Positions 37,282 to 63,770 of a stretch of 64,000 nt of DNA are shown here, piece by piece. Position 1 is the first letter of the stretch. Each line of letters starts with the position of its first letter. The notes beneath the pieces are model-generated. The model was not told the DNA's origin and made no database searches. It worked only from the letters and a program-made list of their open reading frames with translations. Location of the stretch: the NCBI RefSeq assembly GCF_003391055.1, contig NZ_QUAJ01000003.1:62001-126000 (forward strand), written 5' to 3'. The DNA comes from Psychrilyobacter piezotolerans. Lineage in GTDB: Bacteria; Fusobacteriota; Fusobacteriia; Fusobacteriales; Fusobacteriaceae. The position numbers and the translations under genes were made by a program.

Positions 37282-38568
37282 ATGTTAGAGAGAATGTTTA
37301 AGTTGACCGAAAGGGAAACGAGTGTAAAGCAAGAGGTTATTGGAGGGCTTACTACATTTATGACTATGTCGTATATTATATTTGTAAATCCTTCCATAAT
37401 GGCAGATACAGGGATGGATAAGGGCGCTCTTATCACTATTACATGTTTAAGTGCTGCAATTGGTAGTTTGATAGCAGCTTTTTGGGCAAATGCACCACTG
37501 GGATTAGCACCTGGGATGGGACTTAATGCATTTTTCACCTATACATTGGTTATTGGGAAAGGAATCCCCTGGGAAACGGCATTGGGTGTTGTTTTTATAT
37601 CGGGATTATTCTTTTTAGTCATGTCAATTGGCGGGATAAGAGAGAGGATAGCACAGGCAATTCCTGTGGAACTGAAGATAGCTTCCACAGCTGGAATCGG
37701 ACTTTTTATAGCTTTTATAGGTTTAAAAAGTATGGGACTCATCGTAGCGAACCCGGCAACATTTGTGTCGTTGGGGAAATTTACTCCCACAGTTGTTTTG
37801 GGAGTGATAGGAATCATGGTGTCGGCTCTCTTGGAGCTTAGAGGAATAAAGGGTGGAATGCTGATTGGTATGATTACCACTACTGTTTTAGGAATGATAG
37901 TAGGAGTAGTAGACCTTCCTACACATATAATTTCTATGCCGCCGTCAATAGCACCTATTGCATTTAAATTAGATATAGTTGGAGCCTTTAAATTTGCACT
38001 GATCGGGCCGATATTTTCATTTATGTTTGTAGATCTGTTTGATTCATTGGGAACTCTTATCGCCTGTGCCAAGGAGATGGGAATGGAAGACGAAGATGGA
38101 AATATCCTATCACTGGGAAGGATGATCCATACAGATGTAGCTTCTACAATAGTAGGATCGTTGTTAGGGTCTAGTACAGTTACCACACTGTCGGAAACCA
38201 CAGCAGGGATAGCAGCAGGAGCCAGAACAGGATTAGCATCGGTGGTAATAGGGATATTGTTTTTACTCTCATTATTATTTACACCAATTGTAGGGATTGT
38301 GCCGGCTTATGCCACAGCACCGGCTCTGATTATTGTTGGGATCTACATGTTTAAAAATCTAAAGGAGCTGGATCTCCATGATTTTAAAACAGCATTGCCG
38401 GTCTTTGCTACGGTTATAATGATGCCCCTTACATACAGTATCAGTACCGGCCTTAGTTTTGGATTTTTATCATTTATCGTAGTCCATGTGGGAACAGGGG
38501 AACACAATAAAGTTTCTCCGGTTTTATGGGCAATAGGCGGACTTTCACTTTTAAGTTTAGTAGTATAG
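37282..38568 (+). CDS. NCS2-family purine permease (AzgA/PbuG type)
   Basis: Inner-membrane nucleobase:cation symporter of 428 residues with about 12-14 helices. It has the AzgA subfamily opening (RETSVKQEVIGGLTTFMTMSYIIFVNP, NPSIMADTGM), the substrate-region LGLAPGMGLNAFFTYT near 74-89, and FSFMFVDLFDSLGTLI. Its guanine riboswitch supports guanine/hypoxanthine uptake. GGACGGGGGAAGCAGA precedes the ATG. Single gene with a terminator. Confidence 0.92.
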   Translation: MLERMFKLTERETSVKQEVIGGLTTFMTMSYIIFVNPSIMADTGMDKGALITITCLSAAIGSLIAAFWANAPLGLAPGMGLNAFFTYTLVIGKGIPWETALGVVFISGLFFLVMSIGGIRERIAQAIPVELKIASTAGIGLFIAFIGLKSMGLIVANPATFVSLGKFTPTVVLGVIGIMVSALLELRGIKGGMLIGMITTTVLGMIVGVVDLPTHIISMPPSIAPIAFKLDIVGAFKFALIGPIFSFMFVDLFDSLGTLIACAKEMGMEDEDGNILSLGRMIHTDVASTIVGSLLGSSTVTTLSETTAGIAAGARTGLASVVIGILFLLSLLFTPIVGIVPAYATAPALIIVGIYMFKNLKELDLHDFKTALPVFATVIMMPLTYSISTGLSFGFLSFIVVHVGTGEHNKVSPVLWAIGGLSLLSLVV

Positions 38569-38690: not shown

Positions 38691-39089
38691 TTATTTTTCA
38701 TGCTTAAATAATTTTTCTTCTTTCATCCGTTTGTGTGAATATTCTTTAAATAATTGATAAAAATATGAATAAAGAACAGCATTAATACAACCTTGAATAA
38801 ATATTATCCAATATAAATTTGAAATCCCAGAGTAGTTATCTATAAAGTAAAATATAAAAAAATTAGAAATTATTGTAGCGAAAACAGCACTTAATAAATA
38901 ACCAAATCTATAATTAGGATCTTTAGTAAATTTAATTATTACTATTATATTTCCAAAATTTGTAAATAAATCTAATACCTTTAATAAAATGGGATTTTCT
39001 ATTAAAGGCTCAATTGATACAATCATTAAATTTACTAATGTAAAAATAATCATAACAATTAATACAAACACATCAATCTTTTTTTTCAT
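38691..39089 (-). CDS. Four-helix membrane protein, unknown
   Basis: 132 residues, almost all hydrophobic, with four predicted membrane segments (about 7-28, 36-54, 64-83, 92-112) and a basic C-terminal tail (KRMKEEKLFKHEK). No family recognised. It is transcribed away from the XRE-TPR regulator with a 259-bp spacer between. It could be a target or partner of that regulator, but only proximity suggests this. Confidence 0.6.
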   Translation of the reverse strand: MKKKIDVFVLIVMIIFTLVNLMIVSIEPLIENPILLKVLDLFTNFGNIIVIIKFTKDPNYRFGYLLSAVFATIISNFFIFYFIDNYSGISNLYWIIFIQGCINAVLYSYFYQLFKEYSHKRMKEEKLFKHEK

Positions 39090-39266
39090 CTAATTCACAT
39101 CCTATAATTTTTAGTGAAGTCTTTCCGAATCATGATCGGGAGTACCTCTGTATGAGATTTCTTTATAACTCTCTCCTAAGTGTTACTGTAGTATCTTATC
39201 TTTTTAAACCTAATCTATCAATTTTTTTCAAAAAAACATGAAAACTGAATTTTTAAGTGATTTTTT

Positions 39267-39291
39267 ATTCAATTTTTGCTATAAATTGAAT
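39267..39291. promoter_or_regulatory. Palindromic candidate operator
   Basis: ATTCAATTT (39267-39275), 7-base spacer, AAATTGAAT (39283-39291), just upstream of the regulator's -35 box. A further AATTGAAT half-site lies within the promoter spacer. Confidence 0.55.
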
Positions 39292-39296
39292 TTTGT

Positions 39297-39325
39297 TTGC
39301 AATAATTGAATGTTCTATGTAAAAT
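39297..39325 (+). promoter_or_regulatory. Promoter of the XRE-TPR regulator
   Basis: TTGCAA (39297-39302), 17-bp spacer, TAAAAT (39320-39325). Confidence 0.65.
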
Positions 39326-39348: not shown

Positions 39349-40557
39349 ATGGAAAATAAAGTTTTTAAAATAGCTAAAACACATAAAATAACGTTAAAAG
39401 AACTGGGGTGTAAAGGAATTAGTGCCACTTATCTCACTAAAATAAAAAAAGGACATAATTCTTTTAAAGAAAAACATATACCTTTGTTGGTTGATTCTTT
39501 CAATAGAATTTTTCAAGAAAGAAATATAGATAAGATTATTATTATGGAAGAATTGTATATTACTCCCCAGCAGGAACTGGATCAATTAATTGTTGAAAGT
39601 CTTATAAATAAAAGTATCTATTTCCAAGAAAAGCAGGAAGAGATAGAGTTGTTTGGACGGGAAAAAGAAGTTCACAGCTGTAAATACCGGTATATTATAG
39701 CCAAACATAATCAAAGGATGGGTAAGAAAGAAAAAGCTTTAAATATCTATTACGATCTATTAAACAACTTTTCCTGCTCTGTTTTTTTCTATTCTATCTT
39801 AATTGAGGTAATTCGATTGGAAAAAACAGAACTTCCCTATAAAATATACCTGAAATATCAGAAGAAGATCGATAGAGCTCCGTATAAAACAAAAGCACTC
39901 TTAGCCTATAATACTGGTGTGAGTCTCTTAGAAACTAAAAAATGGAGTAAAGCTATCTCATGTTTTGAAGTTGTTATTGATATGCAGGAGATTACAAAGC
40001 ATTACTATAATTCTTATCAAAATCTAGGTGTTTGTTATCAAAACTTAAGAGAATATGAAAAAGCCGTTGAATATTTTAAAAAAAGTGTAAGTGATCCATT
40101 AAATTATAATGATTTAGAAATTTGTTATACCAATATTATTTCTTGTGCTAAAGAAATGAAAAATGAAATGCTGGTAAAAATTACTGTTAATAAACTCGAA
40201 AATATACTTAAAGAATTAAAAAACGAAACATTGTATCAAACTTATTGGAATCTAGGATTATCTTATCTATATTTAGGAGAGACAAATAAGGCTGTCAATG
40301 CATTTGAAAAAGAAATTTCATTTCCTATAAATTTTAATGATCTTCATTTTAACTCAATTAAATATTTAGATTCTATCAAGCAACTTGTTTTACTCTATGG
40401 TCATCAGCCATTAAAACAGCAGGAATTAATAAAAATAATCTGTGAAATACCCAAGAAAATGATGTGTTACGATTTTTTTCTGTATATATTAAAATTTTAT
40501 ATAAATAATTCTCTAGAATACGAAGCTAATCTTCTTATTCGGAAAATACAATTATAA
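39349..40557 (+). CDS. XRE-type regulator with TPR domain, RRNPP-like
   Basis: 402 residues. Residues 1-60 form a helix-turn-helix of unusual sequence (ITLKELGCKGISATYLTKIKKG). From about 100 to the end the protein is alpha-helical with tetratricopeptide repeats (YRYIIAKHNQRMGKKEKALNIYYDL; SYQNLGVCYQNLREYEKAVEYFKK; YWNLGLSYLYLGETNKAVNAFEKE). This HTH-plus-TPR architecture is that of RRNPP peptide-sensing regulators (PlcR, PrgX, Rgg-like, Clostridium QssR). AGGAGGTCAC precedes the ATG at 39349. A small secreted-peptide frame lies 17 bp downstream, as in those systems. Ligand and targets are unproven. Confidence 0.75.
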   Translation: MENKVFKIAKTHKITLKELGCKGISATYLTKIKKGHNSFKEKHIPLLVDSFNRIFQERNIDKIIIMEELYITPQQELDQLIVESLINKSIYFQEKQEEIELFGREKEVHSCKYRYIIAKHNQRMGKKEKALNIYYDLLNNFSCSVFFYSILIEVIRLEKTELPYKIYLKYQKKIDRAPYKTKALLAYNTGVSLLETKKWSKAISCFEVVIDMQEITKHYYNSYQNLGVCYQNLREYEKAVEYFKKSVSDPLNYNDLEICYTNIISCAKEMKNEMLVKITVNKLENILKELKNETLYQTYWNLGLSYLYLGETNKAVNAFEKEISFPINFNDLHFNSIKYLDSIKQLVLLYGHQPLKQQELIKIICEIPKKMMCYDFFLYILKFYINNSLEYEANLLIRKIQL

Positions 40558-40573
40558 ATTTAAAGGGGGAAAG

Positions 40574-40710
40574 ATGAAAAAAAATGGCTAATACTTATAG
40601 GTGTTTTATTACTCTTTAGTATCACTTTTGCTAATAAAACTGCTGGAATGGGAGCAAGAAGTCCTAAAGTACCAATTAACACATCTAACATTACATTTGA
40701 ACTAAACTAA
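40574..40710 (+). CDS. Small secreted peptide, candidate pheromone, one base out of frame
   Basis: GGGGGAAAG precedes an ATG (40574) and a run of eight A. As written, the frame stops after five codons. With nine A it would read MKKK followed by WLILIGVLLLFSITFA and a 25-residue tail beginning NKTAGMGARSPK and ending NITFELN, stop at 40708. The encoded product would be a 45-residue precursor with a classic signal peptide and a short secreted part, directly behind an RRNPP-like regulator. The A-run suggests slippage (phase variation or transcriptional slippage) or a sequencing error. No homologue is recognised. Confidence 0.55.
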
Positions 40711-40753
40711 AAAAGAACCCTTAAACCATTTATGGTTTTAAGGGTTCTTTTTA
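40711..40753. terminator. Bidirectional terminator
   Basis: AAAAGAACCCTTAAACCA pairs with TGGTTTTAAGGGTTCTTTT (one bulge), between the peptide frame and the convergent RseC-like gene. Confidence 0.92.
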
Positions 40754-40754
40754 T

Positions 40755-41207
40755 TTATTCCTTTGGCCCGCAGCTTGTAATCTTTATCTCATCTGAAGGA
40801 GTAACTTCCTTGATGGAGATCTCCTCTTTTATCATTTTACTTCCGGTTTTTTTATCAAAGATATAAAAACCTAAAAATGATACAACCAGAGTGGTGAAAC
40901 TGACTACTATTCCCTGTCCTTCACTGGCACCTAATTTAGCAGCTACGATATAACTGAGAACCATTAAAATTACAGGCAGGATATAGATGAGAAGAGCTAA
41001 ATTCAAGATGAATTTATTATTGATCTCAAAGGTTATGAGATCTCCTACATTTATTTTTATATCCTCATTGAGTTCATAGTGATACAGGTCGGCTATGGTT
41101 TTATCTTTTTTCCCGCAGCCGGAGCAGTGAGCACAAGAGCTGTCTCTAAATAATTCTATATATAGGTTTTTTCCTTCAATTTTTTTTACGATACCTTTAT
41201 TTTCCAC
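40755..41207 (-). CDS. SoxR-reducing/RseC-family membrane protein
   Basis: 150 residues: a cytoplasmic N-terminal part with the Cys cluster SSCAHCSGCGKK (near residues 23-33), two membrane helices (about 65-85 and 92-115), and a short tail ending SCGPKE. Members of this family (RseC/MucC; RsxE-linked) are associated with Rnf/Rsx electron transport. I start at GTG 41207, preceded by GGGGGGAATTTTT, rather than at the ATG at 41228. A promoter with TATAAT lies just upstream. Its 5' leader has a diverged duplicate at 42338-42386. Confidence 0.85.
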   Translation of the reverse strand: MENKGIVKKIEGKNLYIELFRDSSCAHCSGCGKKDKTIADLYHYELNEDIKINVGDLITFEINNKFILNLALLIYILPVILMVLSYIVAAKLGASEGQGIVVSFTTLVVSFLGFYIFDKKTGSKMIKEEISIKEVTPSDEIKITSCGPKE

Positions 41208-41369
41208 AAAAATTCCCCCCAGACACATTATGAGTTTATTATATCATATTTTTAATAATATGCAATTTACTTGTACAATATATATTAATAATATTAATGG
41301 TTATTTCACTTTTTTTTTGCTAAAATGGAAGGAGTGATAATCTAGTGGGGATTTAGCAGGAGGAGATTA

Positions 41370-60275: not shown

Positions 60276-63200
60276 ATGGATATAATCAGTGATATAGGAG
60301 AAAGAATAAAAGAATGTAGAATAAATAAAGATGTAAATGACTTAATTCTTAAGAATGAAAAAGAGATAAAAGAAAAATTAAAAAATTTAGATTTAGAAAA
60401 AGAAAAACTAGTATTTATATTGGGAGCAGGGATATCTATAGCTTATGGTTTGAAGTCATGGGATGAATTAGCTGATTGTTTGGTTGAAGAAGCTTACAAA
60501 ACAGACAAAATAAGTGAATTAGGAATGACTATTTTAAAGAGAAAAGATCCAAAGAATAAGATAACTACAATAAAAAAAATATTAGAAAAAGATGATGAAA
60601 AGAATGAAAGATATTATAAAATAATAGAAAAAGAGTGTTATTTAGGAAAAGAAGGTGAACTTTGGAAAGTGGAAGAGAAGCAAAATCTTATTTTAGAGAG
60701 TATAAAAAAAATTGATGAATACGATAATATAAAATATATTACAACCAATATAGATAAGTTATTAGAAGTGTATTTAGGTGAAGAAGAAGTTTCTATAAAA
60801 TTAGAGGATATATCAGAAAATAAAAAAATAGAAAAACTTCATGGGTGTATAGAAAAGAAAGAGATAGTTTTTACTCCTATGGAGTATATTGATTTTTATA
60901 GTAAAGAAGATAATAATAATAAATTAAATAAATTAGTAGGAGATTCTTCTCTAGTGATTTTTTTAGGAAAAGGATTGGAATCAGAAATACTTCAAGCTAT
61001 ATTAAAAAAAGAATATGAAAGAACGGATTTTTATATATTTAAATATTATGGAGATATTCCTACAAATGAATTAAATACAACCATAGATCTTGATAATCAG
61101 TGCTATAAAAATAGAAGAATTAAAATTTTACCCTATAATGATCACGCAAAGTTACCAGAGTATTTTGATGAATTAATCGGAGCAAATTTAAACTTGATTT
61201 CTCAAAGTACTTTAGATGAGCTTAAAGATCTTGATATAGGAAAGTTAAAAAAGAGGTTAAAAAATGAAGAAATGGTGAGAGGGTTGGCATTAAAATTAAG
61301 AGATGGATATTTAGAAGGTTATCTTCCAAAGATTAGTAAAGATGATTTAGTAACTTTATACTCTGAGAGGGAATCAATTTTGTCAAAATCTAAAGGAAAA
61401 GTAGAAGATATTTATTTAGAAGTCTTTGTAAAATATAAAGGCAAAGAGTTTATAGATGAAGTATGGGAAAATATGAATAAAAATAAAAATTTAGATGTTT
61501 GGAACTTAAAAACAATAGTTAGATTGAGTGAAGAAATAGATGAGGATCGATTAAAGAAAATATTTAATTTCATTGAGGGAAGAAAAGGTGGGTATAACGA
61601 TTATTTAATAGTTGAAATCTTTGAGGTTTTATTAAAAAAAATTAAAAATGAAGAATTTTTATATGAACAAATATTTGCAATAGAAAAGCAAAATAGTAAT
61701 TTAGAATTTAAATATTTTACCAGAGAGTCATTTGATAGATTTTTAGAGAGAAATATAGAATTAATAGACTACGAAATACTTCAAAAGATAATGTTAGGTA
61801 TAATAAATTCAATTGATTCAATATTTACAGGAAAATATGAAATGAAAGATGGGTTTATACCAACAATAGATCCAATTATTTTAATAGATATACTGGATGG
61901 GTTGAATTATTTTTTTGTTAAGGATCCAGATAATTTCAACAAGTTTTTTAAAGGTATTAAAGATTTTAAATTTGAAAAAATAAAAGAATTAAAAATATTG
62001 GGGTATGTATGTTCTATAAATCCATTACTATTAAATAAAATTGAGATTAAAGAAATAGTGGGGATTATTTCTATAACAGGAAGTATGTATTATCCACTTT
62101 TACAAAAAAATAAAGAGATTAAAGAAAAATTAAAAAATGTAGATTATGAAAAAGAAGTGGAGGATTTTTATAAAAAATTAGATAAAGTCCAAGATATAGA
62201 AGATATAATAGAATCTAAATTTTTTATATCTTCTATACTAGAGGATGAGAAAAATAAAATAAAATTTAAAGAGGAGCATAAAAGGGAATTAGAAATTTCA
62301 GATTATAAATTAACTAGAAAGATAAAAATTAATATAAGTGTGATGAAATTATTAAAAGAGAAAATGAATGAAGAAGAGTTTTGGGAAGAAATAAAAAGTA
62401 TATATTCGTTAGGTCAGACTAATGTAAATATATATGAAAAAGAAATATATTTTAAATATAAAGAAATAATTGATAAAACTCCTATTAAAATGCCGATTGA
62501 ATTTTATGAGAATTTATTTTATAAGGTAGAAGAAATTTTGGAATTAGAAGAATTGTATAAAAATTATATAGAGAAGGCAAGGCAGAAAAAATATTTTGAA
62601 ATTACTTATTCTTATCAAGAAGCTATAATAAATAAATTTAGAACCTTGGAAAATGATAATAAGTTAACTGACGAATATGAAGAGTTTGTAGAAAGGATAT
62701 TTCGAATAGGAGAGAGAATAGAAGGTATTTATGGAGATAAATTTTCTAAAAATTCTGGTGAAAATCCTTCAAGATATTTAAATTTAATGTTTTTACCGCT
62801 GTACTATAGTAATATGGATGATCAGGAAAAATTGAATCTAGTGTTAAAAAGAATTGATTCAAAGAAAGATGTTTTTCCAGATGGAGTAGATTATGAAATA
62901 GGTAGAAATTTATTTGAATTTTATGATATGAAAAAAAAAAAAATTTTAGAAGAGACAAAATGGAGAGAAATTTTAGAAAAAAAATCTAGTGGATTTATTA
63001 GAAGTTTTAGAGAGGCAAGAAATTCTAAAATGCCAAGGGAATTATATGAAGAATTATTTGAGAATAATTTCTTTATAGAGATGTTAAATGCAGGGGAATT
63101 AGAAAAAATAGATGTGGCTATATTTTGGGGATTGTTAATAGAAGGGATAAAAAAAGATACAAAAACTATAAAAAAATTAGATGAAATTAAAGAAATGAAT

Positions 63201-63770
63201 CAGTTTATTGTAGGAGAGATGATCTTATATATTGATAGATTGGGAAAAAGGTTTGGAGAAATTGGTTGCAATTCTCAAGATAAAGAAATGTATAAAACTA
63301 TAAAAGAAAAATTATTAAAAATGATTTTAGATCTTATAAAAAAAGATAAAGTGAAATGGATGGAAGGTTATTTTGATATGAATTTTTTAGACCTTTGTTT
63401 AGATGAAGAAATTATAAAAAATGAAAAACAAGTAATGGACATATTTATATATAATTTCGAAATCAAAAAATTAAATAAAAATGATTCTTTATTTTATCTT
63501 AAAAATAATCCTGAAAAGATATACGAAAAAATTAAAAAAATAGATAAATATCTTGCAGGTGTATTTATTATTTTCGTTGTAATGAACGGGTATAGATATA
63601 AAGAAAAATTATTAAAGAATAAAAAATTAATTAAGGAAAAGGAATTAAAAAAATTAAGTTTTAAAAATTTTGATAAAGATTTAAAAGAACTTATAAAGGA
63701 TTGTTTAATGGATGATGAATTGAAAATAGATATAGAAAAGCTAAAATTAAAGATACAATTTAATAACTAA
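60276..63770 (+). CDS. Large SIR2-domain protein, probable anti-phage NADase
   Basis: 1164 residues. The N-terminal SIR2 domain (about 40-300) has FILGAGISIAYGLKSWDELA (GAGIS at 50-54), YITTNIDKLLEVY (Asn 158, Asp 160) and KLHGC (His 189). It lacks the zinc cysteines of protein deacylases. The remaining ~850 residues are Lys/Glu-rich helices, perhaps HEAT-like. Length and layout resemble DSR2-type defence proteins that deplete NAD on phage infection. The gene is visibly more A+T-rich than its neighbours and lies beside a repeat, consistent with horizontal transfer. GGTGGTGAACAT precedes the ATG. No partner gene is seen in the window. Confidence 0.75.
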   Translation: MDIISDIGERIKECRINKDVNDLILKNEKEIKEKLKNLDLEKEKLVFILGAGISIAYGLKSWDELADCLVEEAYKTDKISELGMTILKRKDPKNKITTIKKILEKDDEKNERYYKIIEKECYLGKEGELWKVEEKQNLILESIKKIDEYDNIKYITTNIDKLLEVYLGEEEVSIKLEDISENKKIEKLHGCIEKKEIVFTPMEYIDFYSKEDNNNKLNKLVGDSSLVIFLGKGLESEILQAILKKEYERTDFYIFKYYGDIPTNELNTTIDLDNQCYKNRRIKILPYNDHAKLPEYFDELIGANLNLISQSTLDELKDLDIGKLKKRLKNEEMVRGLALKLRDGYLEGYLPKISKDDLVTLYSERESILSKSKGKVEDIYLEVFVKYKGKEFIDEVWENMNKNKNLDVWNLKTIVRLSEEIDEDRLKKIFNFIEGRKGGYNDYLIVEIFEVLLKKIKNEEFLYEQIFAIEKQNSNLEFKYFTRESFDRFLERNIELIDYEILQKIMLGIINSIDSIFTGKYEMKDGFIPTIDPIILIDILDGLNYFFVKDPDNFNKFFKGIKDFKFEKIKELKILGYVCSINPLLLNKIEIKEIVGIISITGSMYYPLLQKNKEIKEKLKNVDYEKEVEDFYKKLDKVQDIEDIIESKFFISSILEDEKNKIKFKEEHKRELEISDYKLTRKIKINISVMKLLKEKMNEEEFWEEIKSIYSLGQTNVNIYEKEIYFKYKEIIDKTPIKMPIEFYENLFYKVEEILELEELYKNYIEKARQKKYFEITYSYQEAIINKFRTLENDNKLTDEYEEFVERIFRIGERIEGIYGDKFSKNSGENPSRYLNLMFLPLYYSNMDDQEKLNLVLKRIDSKKDVFPDGVDYEIGRNLFEFYDMKKKKILEETKWREILEKKSSGFIRSFREARNSKMPRELYEELFENNFFIEMLNAGELEKIDVAIFWGLLIEGIKKDTKTIKKLDEIKEMNQFIVGEMILYIDRLGKRFGEIGCNSQDKEMYKTIKEKLLKMILDLIKKDKVKWMEGYFDMNFLDLCLDEEIIKNEKQVMDIFIYNFEIKKLNKNDSLFYLKNNPEKIYEKIKKIDKYLAGVFIIFVVMNGYRYKEKLLKNKKLIKEKELKKLSFKNFDKDLKELIKDCLMDDELKIDIEKLKLKIQFNN

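Follow-up and report, generated by a model that had tools for sequence, protein, structure and literature searches.

A probable RRNPP-like receptor-propeptide cassette in Psychrilyobacter piezotolerans, with relatives in Fusobacteriaceae and a propeptide frame out of phase at an A run

Peptide pheromones read by cytoplasmic TPR receptors are, in the literature found, described only for Gram-positive Bacillota and for their plasmids and phages. In streptococci, bacteriocin and RaS-RiPP loci are controlled by Rgg/SHP or by ComR, and homopolymer phase variation is familiar, as are frameshifted quorum-sensing mutants (agr, blp). Accounts of the RRNPP family describe Bacillota (PMC9765709, PMC12700828, PMC11343458), and a literature search found no description of RRNPP systems in Fusobacteria. 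The gene-pair criteria applied here are those of PMC10075063, namely a receptor of 250-500 aa, the presence of TPRs, an adjacent propeptide gene of 10-100 aa and Sec secretion of its product.

The window, i.e. the whole stretch of 64,000 nucleotides that was analysed, contains a gene pair that an earlier note, made from the sequence alone, had described as a 402-residue HTH plus TPR regulator followed by an ATG, a run of eight A and a peptide frame one base out. All these elements are found as described, but the regulator stop lies 16 bp from the ATG and not 17 bp, as had been claimed. The parts of the locus, in window positions, are as follows.

38691-39089, minus strand: 132-aa membrane-protein ORF, divergent and beyond the operator, without a Pfam match
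39241-39276, no strand assigned: putative operator palindrome AAAACTGAAT-N16-ATTCAATTTT, one base different from the ATTCAGTTTT of the sister copies
39297-39325, plus strand: promoter-like TTGCAA-N17-TAAAAT, a consensus match only, in a region whose match count is not above that of shuffles
39349-40557, plus strand: 402-aa HTH-TPR regulator, HTH at about residues 1-70 and TPR solenoid at about 111-402
40565-40569, plus strand: GGGGG, Shine-Dalgarno-like, of the peptide gene, kept by the sister copies
40565-40576, plus strand: GGGGGAAAG-ATG
40574-40591, plus strand: ATG frame as sequenced, MKKNG and stop
40577-40584, plus strand: run of eight A (sister copies: A7, A9, A10 or none)
40585-40710, plus strand: propeptide frame without a start codon (codons 40585-40707, then stop)
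40585-40632, plus strand: signal segment WLILIGVLLLFSITFA, within the propeptide frame
40633-40707, plus strand: 25-aa tail NKTAGMGARSPKVPINTSNITFELN, within the propeptide frame
40710-40752, plus strand: intrinsic-terminator-like hairpin, then U-rich tail, by RNA folding; kept by most sister cassettes

A ninth A would, as the earlier note had pointed out, join the ATG to the peptide frame and give a 45-aa precursor. As sequenced, that frame is, by direct reading, unreachable because it lacks a start codon, ATG, GTG and TTG all being absent from the stretch that leads from the preceding in-frame stop to the A run. The terminator-like hairpin is strong and AT-rich (-22.7 kcal/mol, z -6.1); owing to this AT-rich stem, a consensus terminator scan at the cassette gave no match, and the element appears only on RNA folding. 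Since the hairpin with its U-rich tail directly follows the peptide frame, regulator and peptide are probably the last genes of one transcript. Elsewhere in the window, a run of 13 A is found at 62931-62943, inside an open frame of about 1165 codons (60276-63770).

The regulator gives a TPR_2 match (Pfam, E 6.5e-14), and its structural model, obtained from an alignment of only four sequences (mean pLDDT 80, pTM 0.61), contains TPR-like helix pairs and an HTH; Pfam gave no HTH match on the window protein itself, and the domain is also recognized when the protein is aligned with relatives scoring above the HTH_3 cut-off. Thus, with its 402 aa, its TPRs (by Pfam match and by the helix pairs of the model) and the DNA-binding HTH common to most RRNPP members (by model and alignment), the protein resembles RRNPP receptors in these features. 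As to the propeptide, seven sister cassettes carry an adjacent small gene of 44-45 aa or 41 aa at a distance of 16-26 bp, while the window copy makes only MKKNG; a Sec signal is predicted from a Lys-rich start, a hydrophobic stretch and a TFA-N site, all spotted by eye, in a segment that is constrained. The module would therefore share most of the published features of RRNPP gene pairs, yet it occurs in Fusobacteriaceae, outside Bacillota. No RRNPP-specific Pfam or NCBIfam match to the regulator was found, and attempts to place it in a known RRNPP subfamily, both by sequence and by fold, gave matches to generic TPR only. Because the intact sisters look like RRNPP gene pairs by the published criteria, with secretion judged by eye, and a match to a known receptor subfamily was not found, the cassette may be regarded as a novel variant, RRNPP-like in its probable mode of action and not necessarily by descent; that it is an RRNPP-like receptor-propeptide module is, in our judgement, probable.

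Comparison with other cassettes gives substance to the peptide frame. Ten homologous cassettes with an intact regulator were considered, drawn from the source genome and three relatives; the frame is retained in all of them, in phase with its start in seven and, in three, displaced by the A run alone. The ten share the frame and the signal segment, the tail pattern being common to most, and this recurrence indicates that the window peptide frame is more than chance; on these comparisons the peptide frame is real. The earlier note had held that its proposal would fall if the frame were conserved nowhere among genomes with the regulator. Instead, paralogs and relatives keep it; A9 alleles occur in two copies, and the tail pattern recurs in most cassettes. 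The source genome itself holds three further regulator copies with 85-89% DNA identity, its cassettes including an intact A9 copy, and relatives in the genus hold more. The positional ortholog of the window copy (G007:C2:1846362), identified by a common downstream gene (40755-41228) and a common permease past the divergent genes (37282-38568), has an in-frame peptide with no A run and a related tail, NEYIGQGRRIPKVLTNISKFIFEQN. Purifying selection acts on the signal segment, as judged over four sister pairs (w 0.19, p 7e-5); for the tail, w is 1.5, not significantly greater than 1, and purifying selection is not significant. Two cassettes with a broken regulator (C24, G006:C2b) and one from which it is deleted (G007:C2:54883) have no in-frame peptide directly downstream; in G005b the regulator is intact and the peptide absent, and the neighbouring G005a has the peptide. 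A cassette remnant (L085, G007:C2:53383-56454) retains its promoter, has lost the regulator and carries a peptide whose tail is degenerate and whose reading frame is disrupted by a shift. At L059:5001-7934, two tandem receptors with different HTH types flank a single peptide gene.

On a wider scale, the regulator profile matches 39 of 98 Fusobacteriota genomes, every one of them belonging to Fusobacteriaceae; in the other genera, most regulators examined have no such peptide downstream. In the two sister genera g14 and g5 (L129, L130, L131, L132), however, a signal peptide and four to seven tandem units ending in RRxxSGGW come after the regulator. The units are alike within a gene and differ from species to species (SGSGGW, AGSGGW, ATSGGW, SSGGGW), and the regulator stands divergent from an HD-domain gene. 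A named-genome scan matched two Fusobacteriaceae MAGs and, weakly and in the TPR part, a Bacteroidota MAG. A viral or phage origin was rejected, IMG/VR containing no relative.

The two domains of the receptor appear to be tied to different partners. Across ten receptor-peptide pairs, divergence of the tail tracks that of the TPR domain (r 0.62, p 0.0002) as opposed to that of the HTH (r 0.10, p 0.22), as expected if the TPR domain reads the tail; linkage could contribute to the correlation, since the TPR end of the gene adjoins the peptide gene. Conversely, the putative operator appears to follow the HTH type, the types having been assigned by eye. With the commonest HTH type goes the palindrome AAAACTGAAT-N15/16-ATTCAGTTTT, about 75-110 bp before the regulator ATG; with the second, the imperfect arms AAAATTGGAA/TTCCAAAA; with the third, the arms AAAAATGAAT/ATTCATTTTT. 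Of 14 promoters, 11 contain inverted repeats of operator size, against two in shuffles, although a few of these are other repeats. In the source genome, the first operator type with 15-base spacing and at most three mismatches is matched only at the cassettes and at C35:188-222, and with 16-base spacing a few weaker matches occur elsewhere; C40 has no operator upstream. Between L028 and L029, the TPR parts are 81% alike and the HTH parts 42% (alignment A2, HTH taken as residues 1-70), and HTH domains indeed look exchanged between cassettes.

What lies divergent from the operator varies. In the source genome, outside the window, C35 (L118:323-5927) carries in this position a CAAX protease, a GG-leader peptide, a second CAAX protease, a C39 exporter (PF03412 plus ABC), an HlyD protein (HlyD_3 by Pfam) and a second GG-leader peptide; the leaders were spotted by eye, in peptides that begin MKELTREEMLEVNGG- and MKELTQEEMLEVNGG-. 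By its predicted content of GG-leader peptide, C39 exporter and accessory protein, this cargo is a class II bacteriocin operon. The start of C35 (L118:4-115) and the end of C40 (last 134 bases, L112) are opposite ends of an IS110-family element, which break at matching points between the regulator promoter and its ribosome-binding site; a full IS110 copy is not assembled in the source genome. We infer, short of proof, that C35 and C40 are the two halves of one cassette split by such an element. The same IS type lies upstream of the regulator in L111. Other cassettes are divergent from MFS exporters (L121, L124), from a 300-aa ORF with MFS and CAAX genes (L128), from DUF2087 and MFS genes (L122, L123) or from an HD-GYP-type gene (L120, L059); at L126:7607-12510 (G006:C2), a RiPP-like cluster with radical-SAM, MFS and ABC genes stands divergent from a regulator that is broken mid-gene. 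In the window, the sole divergent gene encodes the 132-aa membrane ORF, whereas the corresponding stretch of the positional ortholog holds a 300-aa ORF together with genes for an MFS exporter and a CAAX protease, so that the window copy seems to have lost its divergent cargo. A scan of the whole window for GG leaders found none. Bacteriocin genes near some cassettes, together with the absence of significant purifying selection from the tail, might also mean that the effector is the small secreted peptide itself, bacteriocin-like or displayed at the surface, and that the TPR regulator senses something else. This we regard as unlikely, in that tail and TPR domain covary, the propeptide of g14 and g5 consists of near-identical short units as in tandem pheromone propeptides (PMC11343458), and the bacteriocin-like peptides, which have GG leaders, are encoded by genes of their own.

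If the cassette is taken as a receptor-propeptide module, the window propeptide would be silenced by an A run that is out of phase. Among the ten cassettes, A9 occurs twice (in frame), A8, A10 and A7 are out of frame, and five lack the run and are in frame. Other gene starts of the source genome with ATG followed by A8 to A10 are in frame in 18 of 18 cases, whereas its cassettes are so in one of three, i.e. off at the A run in two of three against 0 of 18 (p 0.014). Since the cassettes are off more often than the control starts, the run appears to mutate and its loss to be tolerated here, and such tolerance can mean switching or decay. The control starts also disfavour a general homopolymer error in the assembly, and 40 runs of at least eight A or T in the window fall within open frames and leave them unbroken; although the genome is a draft in 86 contigs and holds four similar copies, it is thus very improbable that the run is misread or misassembled and the gene intact in the cell. 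The earlier note had favoured a reversible phase-variation switch, by which individual cells would turn their pheromone on and off. Several observations are in keeping with this, besides the excess of off cassettes: A7, A8, A9 and A10 alleles exist across copies and tract length sets the frame; damage to the peptide in off copies is confined to the run; G006:C1a is off though its operator and MFS operon are in place; and regulators of off lineages remain constrained (w ~0.16). The tract, however, is not maintained in the family, being absent from five of ten copies, two of the three off copies look otherwise damaged, and all comparisons are between paralogs or species (one genome per species) and none within a population, so that a switch is possible, though somewhat doubtful. 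Accordingly, of the earlier proposal of a peptide quorum-sensing cassette switched by its A run, the cassette has held up as an RRNPP-like receptor-propeptide pair and the switch is no more than possible.

Low-level production of the peptide by slippage on the run, be it of RNA polymerase, as also put forward earlier, or of the ribosome, is a still weaker prospect. Runs of eight to ten A can slip, and single-base insertions in transcripts increase exponentially with run length (PMC5574713), yet with E. coli RNA polymerase, which needs at least seven T and even more A and then slips at a relatively low level (PMC6260861), slippage on A runs of such length is poor. Moreover, A8, A10 and A7 need shifts of different direction, for which reason a conserved programmed ribosomal frameshift was rejected. 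Recent signal loss, on the other hand, explains the off copies at least as well as phase variation, given that the window copy is without the cargo of its ortholog and has one operator base off consensus, and that C40, in which an IS110 end takes the expected place of the promoter, appears cut from that promoter. In our reading, therefore, the window copy is a receptor whose signal has recently fallen silent.

The gene pair, the conserved peptide frame, the covariation of operator with HTH and of tail with TPR domain, and the association with cargo are all computational observations, and together they suggest a self-regulated module. The HTH would bind the palindrome between the regulator gene and the divergent gene or operon; the short downstream gene would give a Sec-type propeptide, presumably exported, whose processed tail would be taken back up (the source genome encodes seven OppA-type binding proteins) and read by the TPR domain, which would in turn set divergent transcription; DNA binding, export, import, peptide binding and the direction of regulation are what we infer. 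The targets, judging from related copies, would be bacteriocin or RiPP clusters, exporters, CAAX proteases and an HD-GYP-type protein. In the window, an intact regulator would remain next to a silent propeptide, with the cargo shrunk to the 132-aa membrane ORF, and this copy would represent a natural case of a receptor retained after signal loss. More broadly, and only tentatively, Fusobacteriaceae may have an RRNPP-like receptor family of their own that signals across a double membrane through diverging cassettes, each with its operator, tail and cargo, some of which have been switched at the A run into non-signalling listeners. Such a family, if true, would extend this type of signalling to outer-membrane bacteria, open up quorum sensing in a phylum for which no description of such a system was found, and link peptide signalling in Fusobacteriota to bacteriocin and RiPP warfare; receptor relatives are present in most Fusobacteriaceae genera, which makes the question testable.

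With the RRNPP and RRNPPA systems of Bacillota (PlcR-PapR, NprR, Rgg-SHP, ComR-ComS, QssR, AimR; PMC10075063, PMC9765709), the cassette shares a receptor of 250-500 aa that combines HTH and TPR domains, a small gene directly after it that encodes a putative signal segment, an operator that looks autoregulatory and a diverging signal tail. It differs from them in its host, a member of the Fusobacteriaceae with an outer membrane, in the several cassettes per genome, in the absence of a sequence match to a known receptor subfamily and, as regards the window copy, in having no translatable propeptide. The g14 and g5 genes, with a signal peptide and four to seven repeated units, recall the tandemly duplicated RRNPPA propeptides (PMC11343458), but their unit is RRxxSGGW-like and their receptor family is different. 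As at the Rgg/SHP and ComR loci of streptococci, a receptor-peptide pair is found beside bacteriocin, RiPP and exporter genes, the link to the cargo being here one of position and operator only. Finally, the window copy recalls homopolymer phase variation and the frameshifted agr and blp mutants in that a signalling gene is silenced by a homopolymer frameshift next to an intact receptor; it differs in that the tract is not conserved in the cassette family and gives no sign of reversibility.
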